Source: Salinibacterium amurskyense
GTDB taxonomy: Bacteria > Actinomycetota > Actinomycetes > Actinomycetales > Microbacteriaceae
Assembly (NCBI RefSeq): GCF_002797685.1
Contig: NZ_PGFH01000003.1
Span: forward strand, 124,001 to 188,000
DNA: 64,000 nucleotides
Reading direction: 5' to 3'
A program made the position numbers and the translations under genes. How positions within the stretch are numbered: position 1 is the stretch's first letter; the number at the start of each line of letters is the position of its first letter. The notes beneath the pieces were generated by a model, which was not told where the DNA came from, searched no databases, and saw nothing but the letters and a program-made list of their open reading frames with translations. Below, piece after piece: positions 52,760 through 55,758 of the stretch.

Positions 52760-52769
52760 GAGATTGCTG

Positions 52770-52795
52770 CATCCAAAACAGGGGTTCAGCCAGAA
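52770..52795 (+). promoter_or_regulatory. possible ECF sigma promoter of the DUF4397-sortase operon
   Basis: GCATCC (52769-52774), a 15-base spacer and CCAGAA (52790-52795) resemble the CCATCC / CCGAAT elements reported for mycobacterial SigK, whose anti-sigma RskA is related to the one encoded in this operon. It lies about 50 bases before the first gene. The match is partial and the spacer one base short, so treat as a hypothesis. Confidence 0.35.
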
Positions 52796-52843
52796 GTACT
52801 CCATGTAAGGCGATTTACGCCCGACTATGAGAGGACAAGAACA

Positions 52844-53668
52844 GTGCGAAACAAAATTTTTGCCGGTGTAGCCGCCGGAGCGATTGCCGCCGTAGGAGTC
52901 GCCATCCCCGCCAACGCAATCTCGGACACCACCGCTGACCTGTACGTTCTGCACGCAGTGCCGGGACTCACCGTCGACGTGTACGTCAACGGCGAACTCA
53001 CTCTCGACGACTTCGAGCCCGGTGACCTCGCCGGCCCTCTCGACCTCCCGGCCGACACCTACACGGTCGCGATCACCGCCTCCGATGCCGCCGACGACTC
53101 GTCGCCCGCCATCGGCCCGATCGACCTCACGCTCGAAGCAAACACGAGCTACACCGCGGTGGCTCACCTCGATGAATCAGGTGACCCCACGGCCAGCCTC
53201 TTCACCAATGACCTCTCGACGGTCGCTGCCGGTGAAGGCCGACTGACCGTTCGCCACACGGCTGCAGCCCCCGCTGTCGACGTGCTCGCCAACGACGCAG
53301 TTGCCTTCGAAAACCTGAGCAACCCCGACGAAGTGAAGGCTGACCTCGCGGTCGGAACGATCTCCGCCGCTGTTGCACTCACCGGAACCACTGACCCCGT
53401 CATTGGCCCGGCCGACGTCGAAATCGCCGAAGGTGTCAACACGATCGTGTACGCCTGGGGCAGCGCCGCCGACGACAACCTCACCCTCGCAGTGCAGACC
53501 ATTGACGGCCTCCACTCGAACCCCGGCGGAGTAGACGCCGGAACTGCAGGACTCGCCGCTGACAACAACAACGGCATCCTCGTCGCCGGCCTCGGTGGCC
53601 TCGCAGCACTCCTTGCTCTCGCAGGATTCGCCGCAACCCGACTCTCCGCCGCCCGCGCAGCGAAGTAG
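52844..53668 (+). CDS. secreted DUF4397-domain protein with C-terminal membrane anchor
   Basis: A 274-aa surface protein. The GTG at 52844 follows GAGAGGA. A signal peptide covers residues 1-26 (cleavage near ANA-IS). Two beta-sandwich DUF4397 units follow (about 28-135 and 136-225), each opening with a line such as DLYVLHAVPGLTVDVYVNG or LTVRHTAAAPAVDVLAND. A Gly/Asn-rich spacer leads to a transmembrane helix (about 245-265) and a basic tail. No LPxTG-type motif precedes the helix, although a sortase gene follows. Probably an abundant envelope protein. Confidence 0.85.
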   Translation: MRNKIFAGVAAGAIAAVGVAIPANAISDTTADLYVLHAVPGLTVDVYVNGELTLDDFEPGDLAGPLDLPADTYTVAITASDAADDSSPAIGPIDLTLEANTSYTAVAHLDESGDPTASLFTNDLSTVAAGEGRLTVRHTAAAPAVDVLANDAVAFENLSNPDEVKADLAVGTISAAVALTGTTDPVIGPADVEIAEGVNTIVYAWGSAADDNLTLAVQTIDGLHSNPGGVDAGTAGLAADNNNGILVAGLGGLAALLALAGFAATRLSAARAAK

Positions 53669-53736
53669 TCACAGCACAACCTCCACAGCACGACCCAGTA
53701 CGACCAACACTCACACACCCCAGCAAGGAGAACGTC

Positions 53737-54345
53737 ATGGCCCCGAGAACCCTAGCCCTCGCGGTCATGGCGCTTCTCCTTGCTGGCTGTGCTGCAGCCC
53801 CAGCAGAATCCATCGCCCCGACGCCCGTGCCGTCCCCGCCGCCCACCGCGGTGATCGATGTGCCCCGCCAGTCGAGCGAACTTGCGCCGGTAGAGCAGCT
53901 TGCTGCCCCGGTTCGCATCCAAATTCCTTCCGTCTCCATCGACATCCAGATCACACCGGTCGGAGTCGAGGATGACGGTCTCATGCAGATCCCCGAAGAC
54001 ATTCGAGTCGCCGGCTGGTACCGCTACGGTCCCTCACCCGCCAGTGACACCGGTTCGACCGTTATCACCGCCCATGTCGACGACTTCGAACAGGGCCTTG
54101 GCCCCTTCGCCTATCTCAAAGAGATGCCAGCGGATGCCGAAATCATCGTGACAACAGATGACGGCGTCGATCACCGCTACGTTCTCGAATCCGTGCAGAA
54201 CATCGAGAAGAAACAACTGCCTCTCGACCAGGTCTTCGACCGCGACGGAGCTCCACGAATTGTGCTCATCACGTGTGGGGGACAGTTCGATCAGAACGTC
54301 TTGAACTATTCTGACAACGTCATAGCGATTGCTAACCCGCTATGA
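53737..54345 (+). CDS. class F-like sortase, predicted lipoprotein
   Basis: A 202-aa extracytoplasmic transpeptidase-like protein. The N terminus has a lipobox LLAGC with Cys18, so it should be lipid-anchored instead of using the usual transmembrane helix. The sortase barrel (about residues 55-200) has IQIPSVSIDIQITPVG, His113 in VITAHVDD and the nucleophile Cys180 in VLITCGGQFD. No Arg occurs after Cys180, where the third catalytic residue would be expected. It lies in the DUF4397-sigma operon, its stop overlapping the sigma gene start (ATGA). Confidence 0.85.
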   Translation: MAPRTLALAVMALLLAGCAAAPAESIAPTPVPSPPPTAVIDVPRQSSELAPVEQLAAPVRIQIPSVSIDIQITPVGVEDDGLMQIPEDIRVAGWYRYGPSPASDTGSTVITAHVDDFEQGLGPFAYLKEMPADAEIIVTTDDGVDHRYVLESVQNIEKKQLPLDQVFDRDGAPRIVLITCGGQFDQNVLNYSDNVIAIANPL

Positions 54346-54926
54346 ACACCCTCAACCGGAGAGCTATGACGGACGACGAAGCCGCAGACGAAGCCCGCAT
54401 GACGCAGGCGTTCATCGCGGGCGACGAAGCGGCGCTCGCGGAGGTGTACAAGCGGTGGTCATCGCTCGTCTTCACACTGGCAGTTCGCTCGCTCGGCGAT
54501 CGCGGCGATGCAGAAGACGTCACTCAGAAAGTCTTCGTCTCAGCCTGGACCGGGCGCTCAAGTTTCAAGCCTGAACGATCGAGCCTGTCGGCGTGGCTCG
54601 TCGGAATCACCAAGAACAAGATCGCCGACGCTCACGAAGCTCGAGCGCGAATTCGCCGGCTTCAAGAAGAACTGGCGTCAACAACTTCGCGGGGGGAGGC
54701 TGTCGTGGAAGACTTCGACTTGGCCGACACCCTGATGGTTGCCGACGAGATCTCTCGCCTTGAGCCGGATGCTCAAGCGATCATGCGATTAGCGTTTTTC
54801 GACGATCTCACCCACAACCAAATAGCCGACCGTCTCGAACTACCTTTAGGCACGGTCAAGAGCCATATCCGGCGCAGTCTGCAACGGATGCGAACACGAT
54901 TGGAGGCGACCTATGCGACACGTTGA
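54342..54926 (+). CDS. ECF-type RNA polymerase sigma factor (SigK-like)
   Basis: A 194-aa extracytoplasmic-function sigma factor. Region 2 (about residues 25-95) has YKRWSSLVFTLAVRSLGDRGDAEDVTQ-type motifs, and region 4 (about 135-190) has the helix-turn-helix THNQIADRLELPLGTVKSHIRR. The gene overlaps both neighbours: four bases with the sortase and 14 with the anti-sigma gene. Pairing with an RskA-domain anti-sigma suggests the SigK-like class and control of the operon's own promoter. Confidence 0.92.
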   Translation: MNTLNRRAMTDDEAADEARMTQAFIAGDEAALAEVYKRWSSLVFTLAVRSLGDRGDAEDVTQKVFVSAWTGRSSFKPERSSLSAWLVGITKNKIADAHEARARIRRLQEELASTTSRGEAVVEDFDLADTLMVADEISRLEPDAQAIMRLAFFDDLTHNQIADRLELPLGTVKSHIRRSLQRMRTRLEATYATR

Positions 54927-55758
54927 TCCTGAGGTCCTTGCGCTGCTCGCCCTGGGTGAGCAAGTTGCCCTCCCCGAAGACAGTGTGCACGTGAGCGAAT
55001 GTGACCAGTGCCGTCGCGAGATCGAAATCCTTGCGCGTGCTGCAATGATTGGCCGTTCCACTTTCGATGCTGGTGAGCTGCTCGAAGCTCCCTCGCGCGT
55101 TTGGGATCGCATCAGCGACGAGTTGGCGCTGACGGTAGATGACGCACGTGCGACATCCGCCCCCGCCGTTGGCGATGCTGACGACAGGGTGCCCAGCGAC
55201 GAACTGGCCCAGAAACGCGTCGAACGCGTCGAACGCGACGATGTCGCAGTGGACGAGTCAACCGCAACGAGCATCGCGGAAAGCGGCACTGTGCACTCTC
55301 TTGCCGAGCGCCGTCGCCGTCCGTGGATCGGCTTTGTTGCTGCAGCGGCCGCCGTCGCCTTGGTCGCGAGCGCCGGTACCGCGCTGTGGGCAACTTTCAG
55401 TCCTGCTGAACAGCCGACCATCCTCGCAAGCGCAACCCTCGAAGCCTTCCCGGCCTGGCCAGATTCCACGGGTGAAGCCAAGCTTGAGCAATTGCCCGAC
55501 GGTACGCGCGTGATCGACGTCAACTTTGATGCTCCCGCGACCGACGGTGGCTACCGTGAAGTCTGGTTGATCACGACGGATGCCACGGCTCTCGTCAGCC
55601 TTGGAATCGTTGAAGGCACCTCAGGCCAGTTCACGGTTCCCGACGGCCTCGACGTTTCGAGTTACGACCTCGTTGACATCTCTGAGGAACAGTTCGACGG
55701 AAACCCGGCTCACTCCGGTGACTCCATCGTGCGCGGTCAGCTCTCCACCGAGGCCTAG
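54913..55758 (+). CDS. zinc-binding anti-sigma factor with RskA domain
   Basis: A 281-aa membrane protein that should hold the preceding sigma factor inactive. The cytoplasmic N terminus carries the ZAS motif H26-x3-C30-x2-C33. A single transmembrane helix (about residues 139-158, after RRRRPWIGF) leads to an extracytoplasmic RskA domain (about 170-280; YREVWLITTDATALVSLGI). Release would be by regulated proteolysis, and a PrsW-type protease is encoded at 39375, though no link is shown. Last gene of the operon. Confidence 0.9.
   Translation: MRHVDPEVLALLALGEQVALPEDSVHVSECDQCRREIEILARAAMIGRSTFDAGELLEAPSRVWDRISDELALTVDDARATSAPAVGDADDRVPSDELAQKRVERVERDDVAVDESTATSIAESGTVHSLAERRRRPWIGFVAAAAAVALVASAGTALWATFSPAEQPTILASATLEAFPAWPDSTGEAKLEQLPDGTRVIDVNFDAPATDGGYREVWLITTDATALVSLGIVEGTSGQFTVPDGLDVSSYDLVDISEEQFDGNPAHSGDSIVRGQLSTEA

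Follow-up and report, generated by a model that had tools for sequence, protein, structure and literature searches.

We examined a 64,000-nucleotide stretch of DNA from Salinibacterium amurskyense (contig NZ_PGFH01000003.1, positions 124,001 to 188,000; hereafter the window), which at 52844-55758 carries a module of four genes for a DUF4397 surface protein, a class F-like sortase, an extracytoplasmic function (ECF) sigma factor, and a membrane anti-sigma factor. Such a four-gene module had been described in an earlier account made from the letters of the window alone (the sequence-only reading), and Pfam scans found all four genes where that account had placed them. By comparison with related genomes, we read the module, with a probability of roughly 0.7, as a self-regulating operon that would anchor a single surface protein by a sorting signal other than LPXTG. 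The features of the module are as follows.

52768..52797, + strand: conserved ECF-type promoter-like site, TGCATCC and GAAGT, with the exact form CATCC-N18-GAAGT at 52770-52797
52844..53668, + strand: DUF4397 surface protein, 274 amino acids (PF14344, E 3.8e-29, two DUF4397 stretches)
53522..53551, + strand: candidate sorting motif PGGVDAGTAG, residues P227-G236, from an alignment of 51 tails (A1)
53528-53542, + strand: candidate pentapeptide GVDAG, inside PGGVDAGTAG of the DUF4397 protein
53576..53665, + strand: C-terminal hydrophobic stretch and basic end RLSAARAAK, read from the DUF4397 protein sequence
53737..54345, + strand: class F-like sortase, lipoprotein (PF04203, E 1.8e-16)
53779-53790, + strand: sortase lipobox LAGC, by eye
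54073-54075 and 54274-54276, + strand: sortase catalytic residues His113 and Cys180, by alignment
54342..54926, + strand: ECF sigma factor (Sigma70 region 2 and region 4 models)
54913..55758, + strand: membrane anti-sigma factor with RskA_C domain (PF10099, E 3.8e-12)
54988-55011, + strand: anti-sigma HxxxCxxC motif (HVSECDQC), by eye

Conservation of the four-gene unit

The search for the sortase covered 299 Microbacteriaceae genomes, with a match in 108 and none in 191. For the 60 best matches, surrounding stretches of up to 9 kb were fetched, with one locus per genome and the window's own locus excluded. The sequence-only reading had named a lack of conservation in relatives as a ground for rejecting its interpretation. 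Instead, the four genes were kept together in relatives: all four were present at 55 of the 60 fetched loci, and at 54 of the 60 they had the same order and strand. The gene order at L095 was sigma, anti-sigma, DUF4397, and sortase. L062, L075, and L097 held the DUF4397 and sortase genes alone, with no sigma pair within the fetched stretch, and L096 and L098 were sortase loci of another type. Among named relatives, the three sortases nearest to that of the window came from Salinibacterium strains (82 to 83% identity).

The best NCBIfam match of the window sortase was the class F model NF033748 (118.8 bits, E 1.6e-34), and because this score is under the cut-off of 166, we label the protein class F-like. 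It also differs from the sortases of that model by its lipobox and its place in a sigma-factor operon. With its PF04203 domain and catalytic His and Cys, which were invariant in all 107 aligned sortases, it is a predicted transpeptidase. The DUF4397-type sortases formed one side of a branch in a quick tree (60 of 104 rows), with a Shimodaira-Hasegawa-like approximate likelihood ratio test (SH-aLRT) value of 100.

Two further observations concern the sortases. Residue 194 of the window sortase (54316-54318), which by eye is at the place of the catalytic Arg of sortase A, was aligned with Asn in 106 of the 107 sequences, and class F sortases may use Asn in place of that Arg. Sortases are usually described as held by a membrane helix; a lipobox pattern was found in 84 of 104 sortases, including 52 of 60 of the DUF4397 type, 18 of 18 of the CHRD type, and 1 of 6 of the CHRD-like type. 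The types CHRD, CHRD-like, and DUF4397-II were set by eye from the tails, and 10 partners were scanned with Pfam.

The DUF4397 tail and its sortase

The sequence-only reading had stated that the surface protein has no LPxTG-like signal. Literally this is true, as inspection of the window tail found no L[PA]xTG pentapeptide; however, a conserved tail of the sorting type is present without LPxTG. In DUF4397 proteins adjacent to a sortase, the part after the domain had the form PxG[VI]x[AST]Gx[AG]G, followed by a hydrophobic stretch and basic residues, and in the 51-tail alignment the Pro of the motif was invariant and three of its Gly residues were conserved at 90% or more. Counts were made on 60 DUF4397-type genes, namely, those of the window, of L033 to L035, and of the 60 fetched loci minus L040, L041, L096, and L098. 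L040 and L041, which are the same loci as L035 and L033, were omitted from trees and tail counts; L140, which overlaps L110, and one repetitive frame upstream at L037 were also omitted. The pattern P-x(1,2)-[GSAE]-[VIALY]-x-[TAS]-G-x-[GATVS] fitted 57 of the 60 tails (all except L080, L091, and L092), in which the residue preceding the conserved Gly was Ala in 40, Ser in 13, and Thr in 4.

A tail of similar form is described in NCBIfam (release 20, June 2026) as NF058571 (GVDTG_CTERM), the "GVDTG sorting domain-containing protein," with GV-x-T-G-x-G-G, a hydrophobic stretch, and a basic end. In the window tail, GVDAG replaces GVDTG, and both the hydrophobic stretch and the basic C-terminal end are present. 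Relative to GVDTG_CTERM, Thr is replaced by Ala or Ser in most DUF4397-type tails, and the Pro is one residue closer. The window DUF4397 protein scored 15.7 bits as a whole and 21.1 bits as a tail alone, against a cut-off of 29. In a genome-wide search with this model, the window tail was the best of 10 places (19.8 bits, under the cut-off). Because it scores below the cut-off, the window tail is probably a divergent relative of GVDTG_CTERM and not a member. Matches to NF058571 at E up to 10 were found for 30 of the 51 module tails (best E 8.9e-6).

The A1 profile gave 59 strong matches on the 299 genomes (45 to 96 bits; the next was 28.5), one per genome. Each of the 59 was followed on its strand, 36 to 430 bp downstream, by a class F-like sortase gene, and the 191 Microbacteriaceae genomes without a sortase match gave no strong A1 match. 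However, A1 spans the end of the DUF4397 domain, so the pairing of tail and sortase alone could reflect orthology. The control was therefore DUF4397 genes without a sortase, picked by the absence of the sortase and not by their tails. There were at least 132 DUF4397 domain places (at least 73 bits). For 114 of them, a sortase was listed on the same strand no more than 3 kb downstream; among the matches listed, 18 places (15 genes) had none. Two of these 15 genes (L187 and L188) do have a sortase on reading. For 12 of the remaining 13 (L150 to L161), no sortase was found in the 4 to 4.5 kb fetched, and the encoded proteins stop soon after the domain, with neither motif nor hydrophobic stretch. 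The 13th gene (L095, 2-595) is also tail-less and lies about 3.4 kb from the module of that locus on the other strand, and two extra tail-less DUF4397 copies were found directly upstream of modules (L053 at 5814 and L078 at 2101). Tail and hydrophobic stretch were absent (hydropathy below 1.4) from all 15 DUF4397 genes that are not paired with a sortase. When 75 DUF4397 cores were placed on a tree, the presence of a sortase and that of a tail agreed in 75 of 75 (60 with both and 15 with neither), with at least 3 state changes, and the three independent pairs all changed in the same direction.

Other class F sortases were found next to partners of a second type. Seven of 57 weak A1 matches lay 63 to 213 bp upstream of such sortases, and the second-type set was made up of 40 stretches (L102 to L141, of which L140 overlaps L110) together with L036 to L038, L096, and L098, giving 44 distinct loci. 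Thirty upstream proteins were chosen by their hydrophobic end, with the motif disregarded. The Pro spacing of the DUF4397 type alone missed 24 of these 30, and the pattern was widened. The motif was then present in 28 of the 30 (missing in L130 and L133), and 11 of the 14 other second-type loci had a motif-matching upstream protein, which brings the total to 39 of 44. By eye, L134, L036, L037, L130, and L133 have near forms, TGGG or TGAGG, and the partners at L187 and L188 match the motif too. The residue before the conserved Gly was Thr in all 28 of the 28 matched tails. An alternative pentapeptide reading, AGx[AT]G, was dropped, as G[VI]x[TAS]G suits both tail types.

Pfam scans of 10 second-type partners gave CHRD over the cut-off in 2, CHRD below it in 2, DUF4397 in 5, and neither in 1. 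Six were scanned with NF058571, and its cut-off of 29 was exceeded at L103 (42.5 bits), L128 (35.4 bits), and L106 (34.4 bits) and not reached at L115 (27.7 bits), L141 (26.1 bits), and L121 (18 bits); L103, the one scanned of the seven partners found with A1, had a CHRD score of 54.3 bits, over the cut-off. The signal is thus common to proteins of different families, which argues for function over descent. The motif with a following hydrophobic stretch was present in 101 of 108 partner proteins, compared to 9 of 5097 other open reading frames used as a control, and 5 of those 9 were further DUF4397 partners of second-type sortases.

At 11 of 46 second-type loci (L107, L120, L124, L125, L134, L135, L187, L188, L036, L037, and L038), the motif or a near form was present without a following hydrophobic stretch, the absence being measured for eight loci and seen by eye for L134, L036, and L037. 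This argues that the motif is not part of the anchor. These partners may be soluble sortase substrates, or else the motif may have another role. Some of the proteins without the stretch end 6 to 14 residues past a [GP]xxTGxG-type motif.

These results bear on whether the window tail is a mere membrane anchor, in which case the DUF4397 protein would be bound non-covalently and the sortase would have other targets or another role. The tail does hold a hydrophobic stretch and a basic end, and it scores under the curated sorting-domain cut-off. However, a plain anchor needs no invariant Pro and near-invariant Gly ahead of the stretch, and it would not vanish from all 15 of the genes that are not paired with a sortase. 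Neither the second-type loci that keep the motif without the stretch nor the rank of this tail as the best NF058571 match of its genome agrees with a plain anchor, and we consider it unlikely. The sequence-only reading had left three options for the sortase, an unusual motif, other target proteins, or another role; the first is now favored, with a conserved tail that accompanies the sortase and is missing from the sortase-less DUF4397 genes.

Even if the sortase cuts at this tail, it might do so to release or polymerize the DUF4397 protein and not to fix it to peptidoglycan. Sortase chemistry permits both hydrolysis and polymerization, there is usually one substrate gene per sortase, and the acceptor is unreadable from sequence; the second-type partners without a hydrophobic stretch would suit the joining of soluble subunits. 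However, sortase-less relatives already make a tail-less DUF4397 protein, so that cutting for release would be a detour. We regard this explanation as rather unlikely and continue to favor anchoring.

At the wider level of the class, 296 genomes were searched. NF058571 had matches in 117 of them (73 over the cut-off), and NF033748 had matches in 215 (123 over the cut-off). Of the 91 listed over-cut-off NF058571 tails, at least 39 had a listed class F sortase no more than 2 kb away, with the strands in agreement for 33; the number expected by chance for the 91 tails was 0.1 (8-Mb genome). At least 47 of the 91 were in genomes with a listed sortase. A1 matches were obtained in 51 of the 296 genomes. 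For the 18 of at least 32 bits outside the family, 17 DUF4397 genes adjoin a sortase, and L181 ends at a contig edge. The motif was found in 16 of these 18 tails (not in L184 and L185), and a sigma and anti-sigma pair was found at 14 of the 18 loci, in some cases divergent.

The sigma pair and the promoter-like site

The window anti-sigma matched RskA_C (PF10099) with 47 bits against a cut-off of 29.4 and has a membrane stretch. By its HVSECDQC motif, a predicted zinc motif, it is probably of the zinc-binding anti-sigma (ZAS)/RskA type, and a pattern search found HxxxCxxC in frame in 55 of 55 module anti-sigmas. The second-best NCBIfam match of the sigma factor was SigK (PRK09646), with 97.9 bits against a cut-off of 226.

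The promoter-like site, which the sequence-only reading did not point out, lies 46 nucleotides before the start codon of the DUF4397 gene. A 450-bp region reaching to codon 31 was taken for each of the 60 DUF4397-type genes, and CATCC-N18-GAAGT was present in exact form in 42 of 60 regions, including that of the window, and in 43 of 60 when spacers of N16-19 were allowed. After 200 block shuffles, it occurred in at most 1 of 60 regions each time, and the best dyad of any sequence reached 6 when each region was shuffled once; the upstream regions are related, so that the shuffles overstate this contrast. The same site also precedes the tail-less DUF4397 genes in L151 and L152. We infer that this sigma factor uses CATCC-N18-GAAGT. 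The sigma and anti-sigma genes could instead be mere neighbors with no control over the surface protein and the sortase: the site is deduced from sequence, 18 of the 60 regions lack it in exact form, and 3 of the 58 DUF4397-sortase loci among L039 to L098 (L062, L075, and L097) have no sigma pair in the fetched stretch. The single order and strand at 54 of 60 loci and the frequency of the site compared to shuffled regions, together with its presence before tail-less DUF4397 genes, make this quite unlikely.

The sequence-only reading had proposed a sigma circuit dedicated to the sortase and its probable partner. The conserved promoter-like site backs a dedicated circuit, but dedication to the sortase is not supported: at the sortase-less DUF4397 loci L150 to L161, a sigma match was found in the fetched stretch at 8 of 12 and an anti-sigma match at 9 of 12. 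With sigma matches at most sortase-less DUF4397 loci, the sigma pair seems to belong primarily with the DUF4397 gene, with the sortase as an addition, and it is mainly by the sortase that these loci differ from the modules. Envelope sensing by the circuit and abundance of the surface protein, both put forward in the sequence-only reading, gained no support.

Some related arrangements were also observed. In the genus g79, three genomes (L150 to L152) have sigma, anti-sigma, and a tail-less DUF4397 gene, and a fourth (L078) has the sortase module as well as a tail-less DUF4397 copy with a His-rich end; g79 is a place for studying sortase gain or loss. In 15 of 18 CHRD-type modules (among L096, L098, and L102 to L139), the ECF sigma match was on the strand opposite the sortase, with the parts rearranged. 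In the window's own genome, there were 5 exact GCATCC-N17,18-GAAGTA sites compared to 1 for a control pattern; two of the 5 are found again in relatives and could be coding sequence, and we do not claim a wider sigma regulon.

Proposed mechanism and relation to known systems

In the operon that we propose, CATCC-N18-GAAGT would be the site from which the ECF sigma factor transcribes the unit, its own gene included, and the zinc-type RskA-like anti-sigma would restrain the sigma factor until an outside signal arrives. The C-terminal hydrophobic stretch would keep the exported DUF4397 protein in the membrane, to which the class F-like sortase would be tethered by lipid. Instead of LPXTG, this sortase would recognize PxG[VI]x[AST]Gx[AG]G. 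Within G[VI]x[AST]G it would cut, most likely between [AST] and the final G, and it would then join the DUF4397 protein, most likely to the cell wall. We infer the cleavage, its position, the wall linkage, and the trigger; the steps from cutting on would follow established sortase chemistry.

Several points weigh against this proposal. The whole case is comparative. The window tail is under the NF058571 cut-off (15.7 to 21.1 bits versus 29), the motif deviates in the DUF4397-type partners L080, L091, L092, L184, and L185 and in the second-type partners L130, L133, L134, L036, and L037, and 17 of the 18 regions without the exact promoter-like site have no close form within N16-19. With sortase and tail switching in only 3 independent cases, the sign test gives a p of 0.25, and significance is unreachable. 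The second-type partners without a hydrophobic stretch speak against a uniform classical sorting signal, although the window type has the stretch. In Actinoplanes, no phenotype was reported under the conditions tested after all four class F genes had been deleted (PMC13251363), and the class F sortase of Propionibacterium acnes was assayed with an LPXTG-type peptide, LPQTGE (PMC7451113). The residues around C195 of the latter enzyme, SrtF, are not TC[GN]G, judged by eye from a printed primer (PMC7451113).

The same Actinoplanes study describes two of the class F genes (of SrtF1-4) with neighbors that bear a signal peptide, a membrane stretch, and a basic end and no LPXTG-type motif; according to its authors, these may be substrates (PMC13251363). 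The authors describe class F roles as unknown and left the two neighbors aside for want of an LPXTG-type motif (2026, PMC13251363). LPXTG and LAXTG sorting share a C-terminal tail with the window system, but the sortase and the motif differ. For the sigma pair, there is a likeness to Mycobacterium tuberculosis SigK-RskA, in which an ECF sigma gene adjoins that of an RskA-type membrane anti-sigma and the pair controls genes for secreted or surface proteins, namely, MPT70 and MPT83 (PMC7509140). The window system differs in the low SigK score of its sigma factor, and the word "sortase" is absent from PMC7509140. SigK promoters are described as carrying CCATCC; in the paper checked for it, these letters stood in a primer.

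The GVDTG signal is already known, being named in NCBIfam. In a literature search, no paper was found that makes use of this signal or that connects sortases with DUF4397 or CHRD proteins, and none was found on sortase sorting signals in Microbacteriaceae; the DUF4397 and GVDTG papers retrieved were unrelated by title. What this analysis adds is an Ala/Ser form that falls under the model cut-off and pairs strictly with a single sortase clade, together with counterparts that lack a sortase and a sigma operon that has a promoter-like site.

More generally, we lean, with some caution, towards a rule for class F-like actinobacterial sortases, according to which each would be lipid-tethered and have one adjoining G[VI]x[TAS]G substrate, sometimes without a membrane stretch. 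In the DUF4397 branch, Thr would have given way to Ala or Ser at the cleavage position, with a sortase clade and a self-activating sigma circuit of its own, and signal and sortase would be gained or lost jointly. For class F sortases, this rule points from sequence alone to a probable substrate and signal for each enzyme. It suggests that LPXTG-based screens miss substrates of the DUF4397 kind. It also predicts that the sortase acyl link is made via Ala or Ser and not Thr, which, if true, could be of use for orthogonal ligases. DUF4397 loci with and without the sortase offer a natural comparison inside one bacterial family.

Structure prediction and database searches were also applied to the window proteins. 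An AlphaFold model of the sortase (thin alignment of 7 rows) had a predicted local distance difference test (pLDDT) score of 63.9, and its Foldseek matches, the best at E 1.2e-06, spanned several sortase classes; they support the predicted sortase fold and nothing beyond it. The sortase had no phmmer match in the PDB at E 0.01, and at a threshold of E 10 the one match was an unrelated chain; a sortase profile gave three weak sortase matches in the PDB. The model of the DUF4397 protein (4 near-identical rows; pLDDT 34.6) was uninformative on fold.

The DUF4397 protein has a signal peptide by eye, and its gene is separated from that of the sortase by a gap of 68 bp, without overlap. Overlaps of 4 and 14 bases had been reported for the module. 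The 14-base overlap of sigma and anti-sigma is exact; the 4-base overlap of sortase and sigma holds only if the sigma gene starts at 54342, and an in-frame ATG at 54366, with GGAGAGCT before it, is at least as likely a start. Among the neighbors scanned, a BenE transporter gene before the unit and a PucR-type helix-turn-helix gene after it, on the opposite strand, have no evident link to the four genes. The source genome (2.78 Mb) has a single DUF4397 gene over the cut-off, that of the window. It also has a second sortase at C1:227172, which we take to be of class E, and three LAXTG-like tails (LAATG, LAETG, and LANTG) at C2:604061, C2:82916, and C2:527718. Perhaps these three tails serve the second sortase, so that two separate sorting systems would coexist in this genome.

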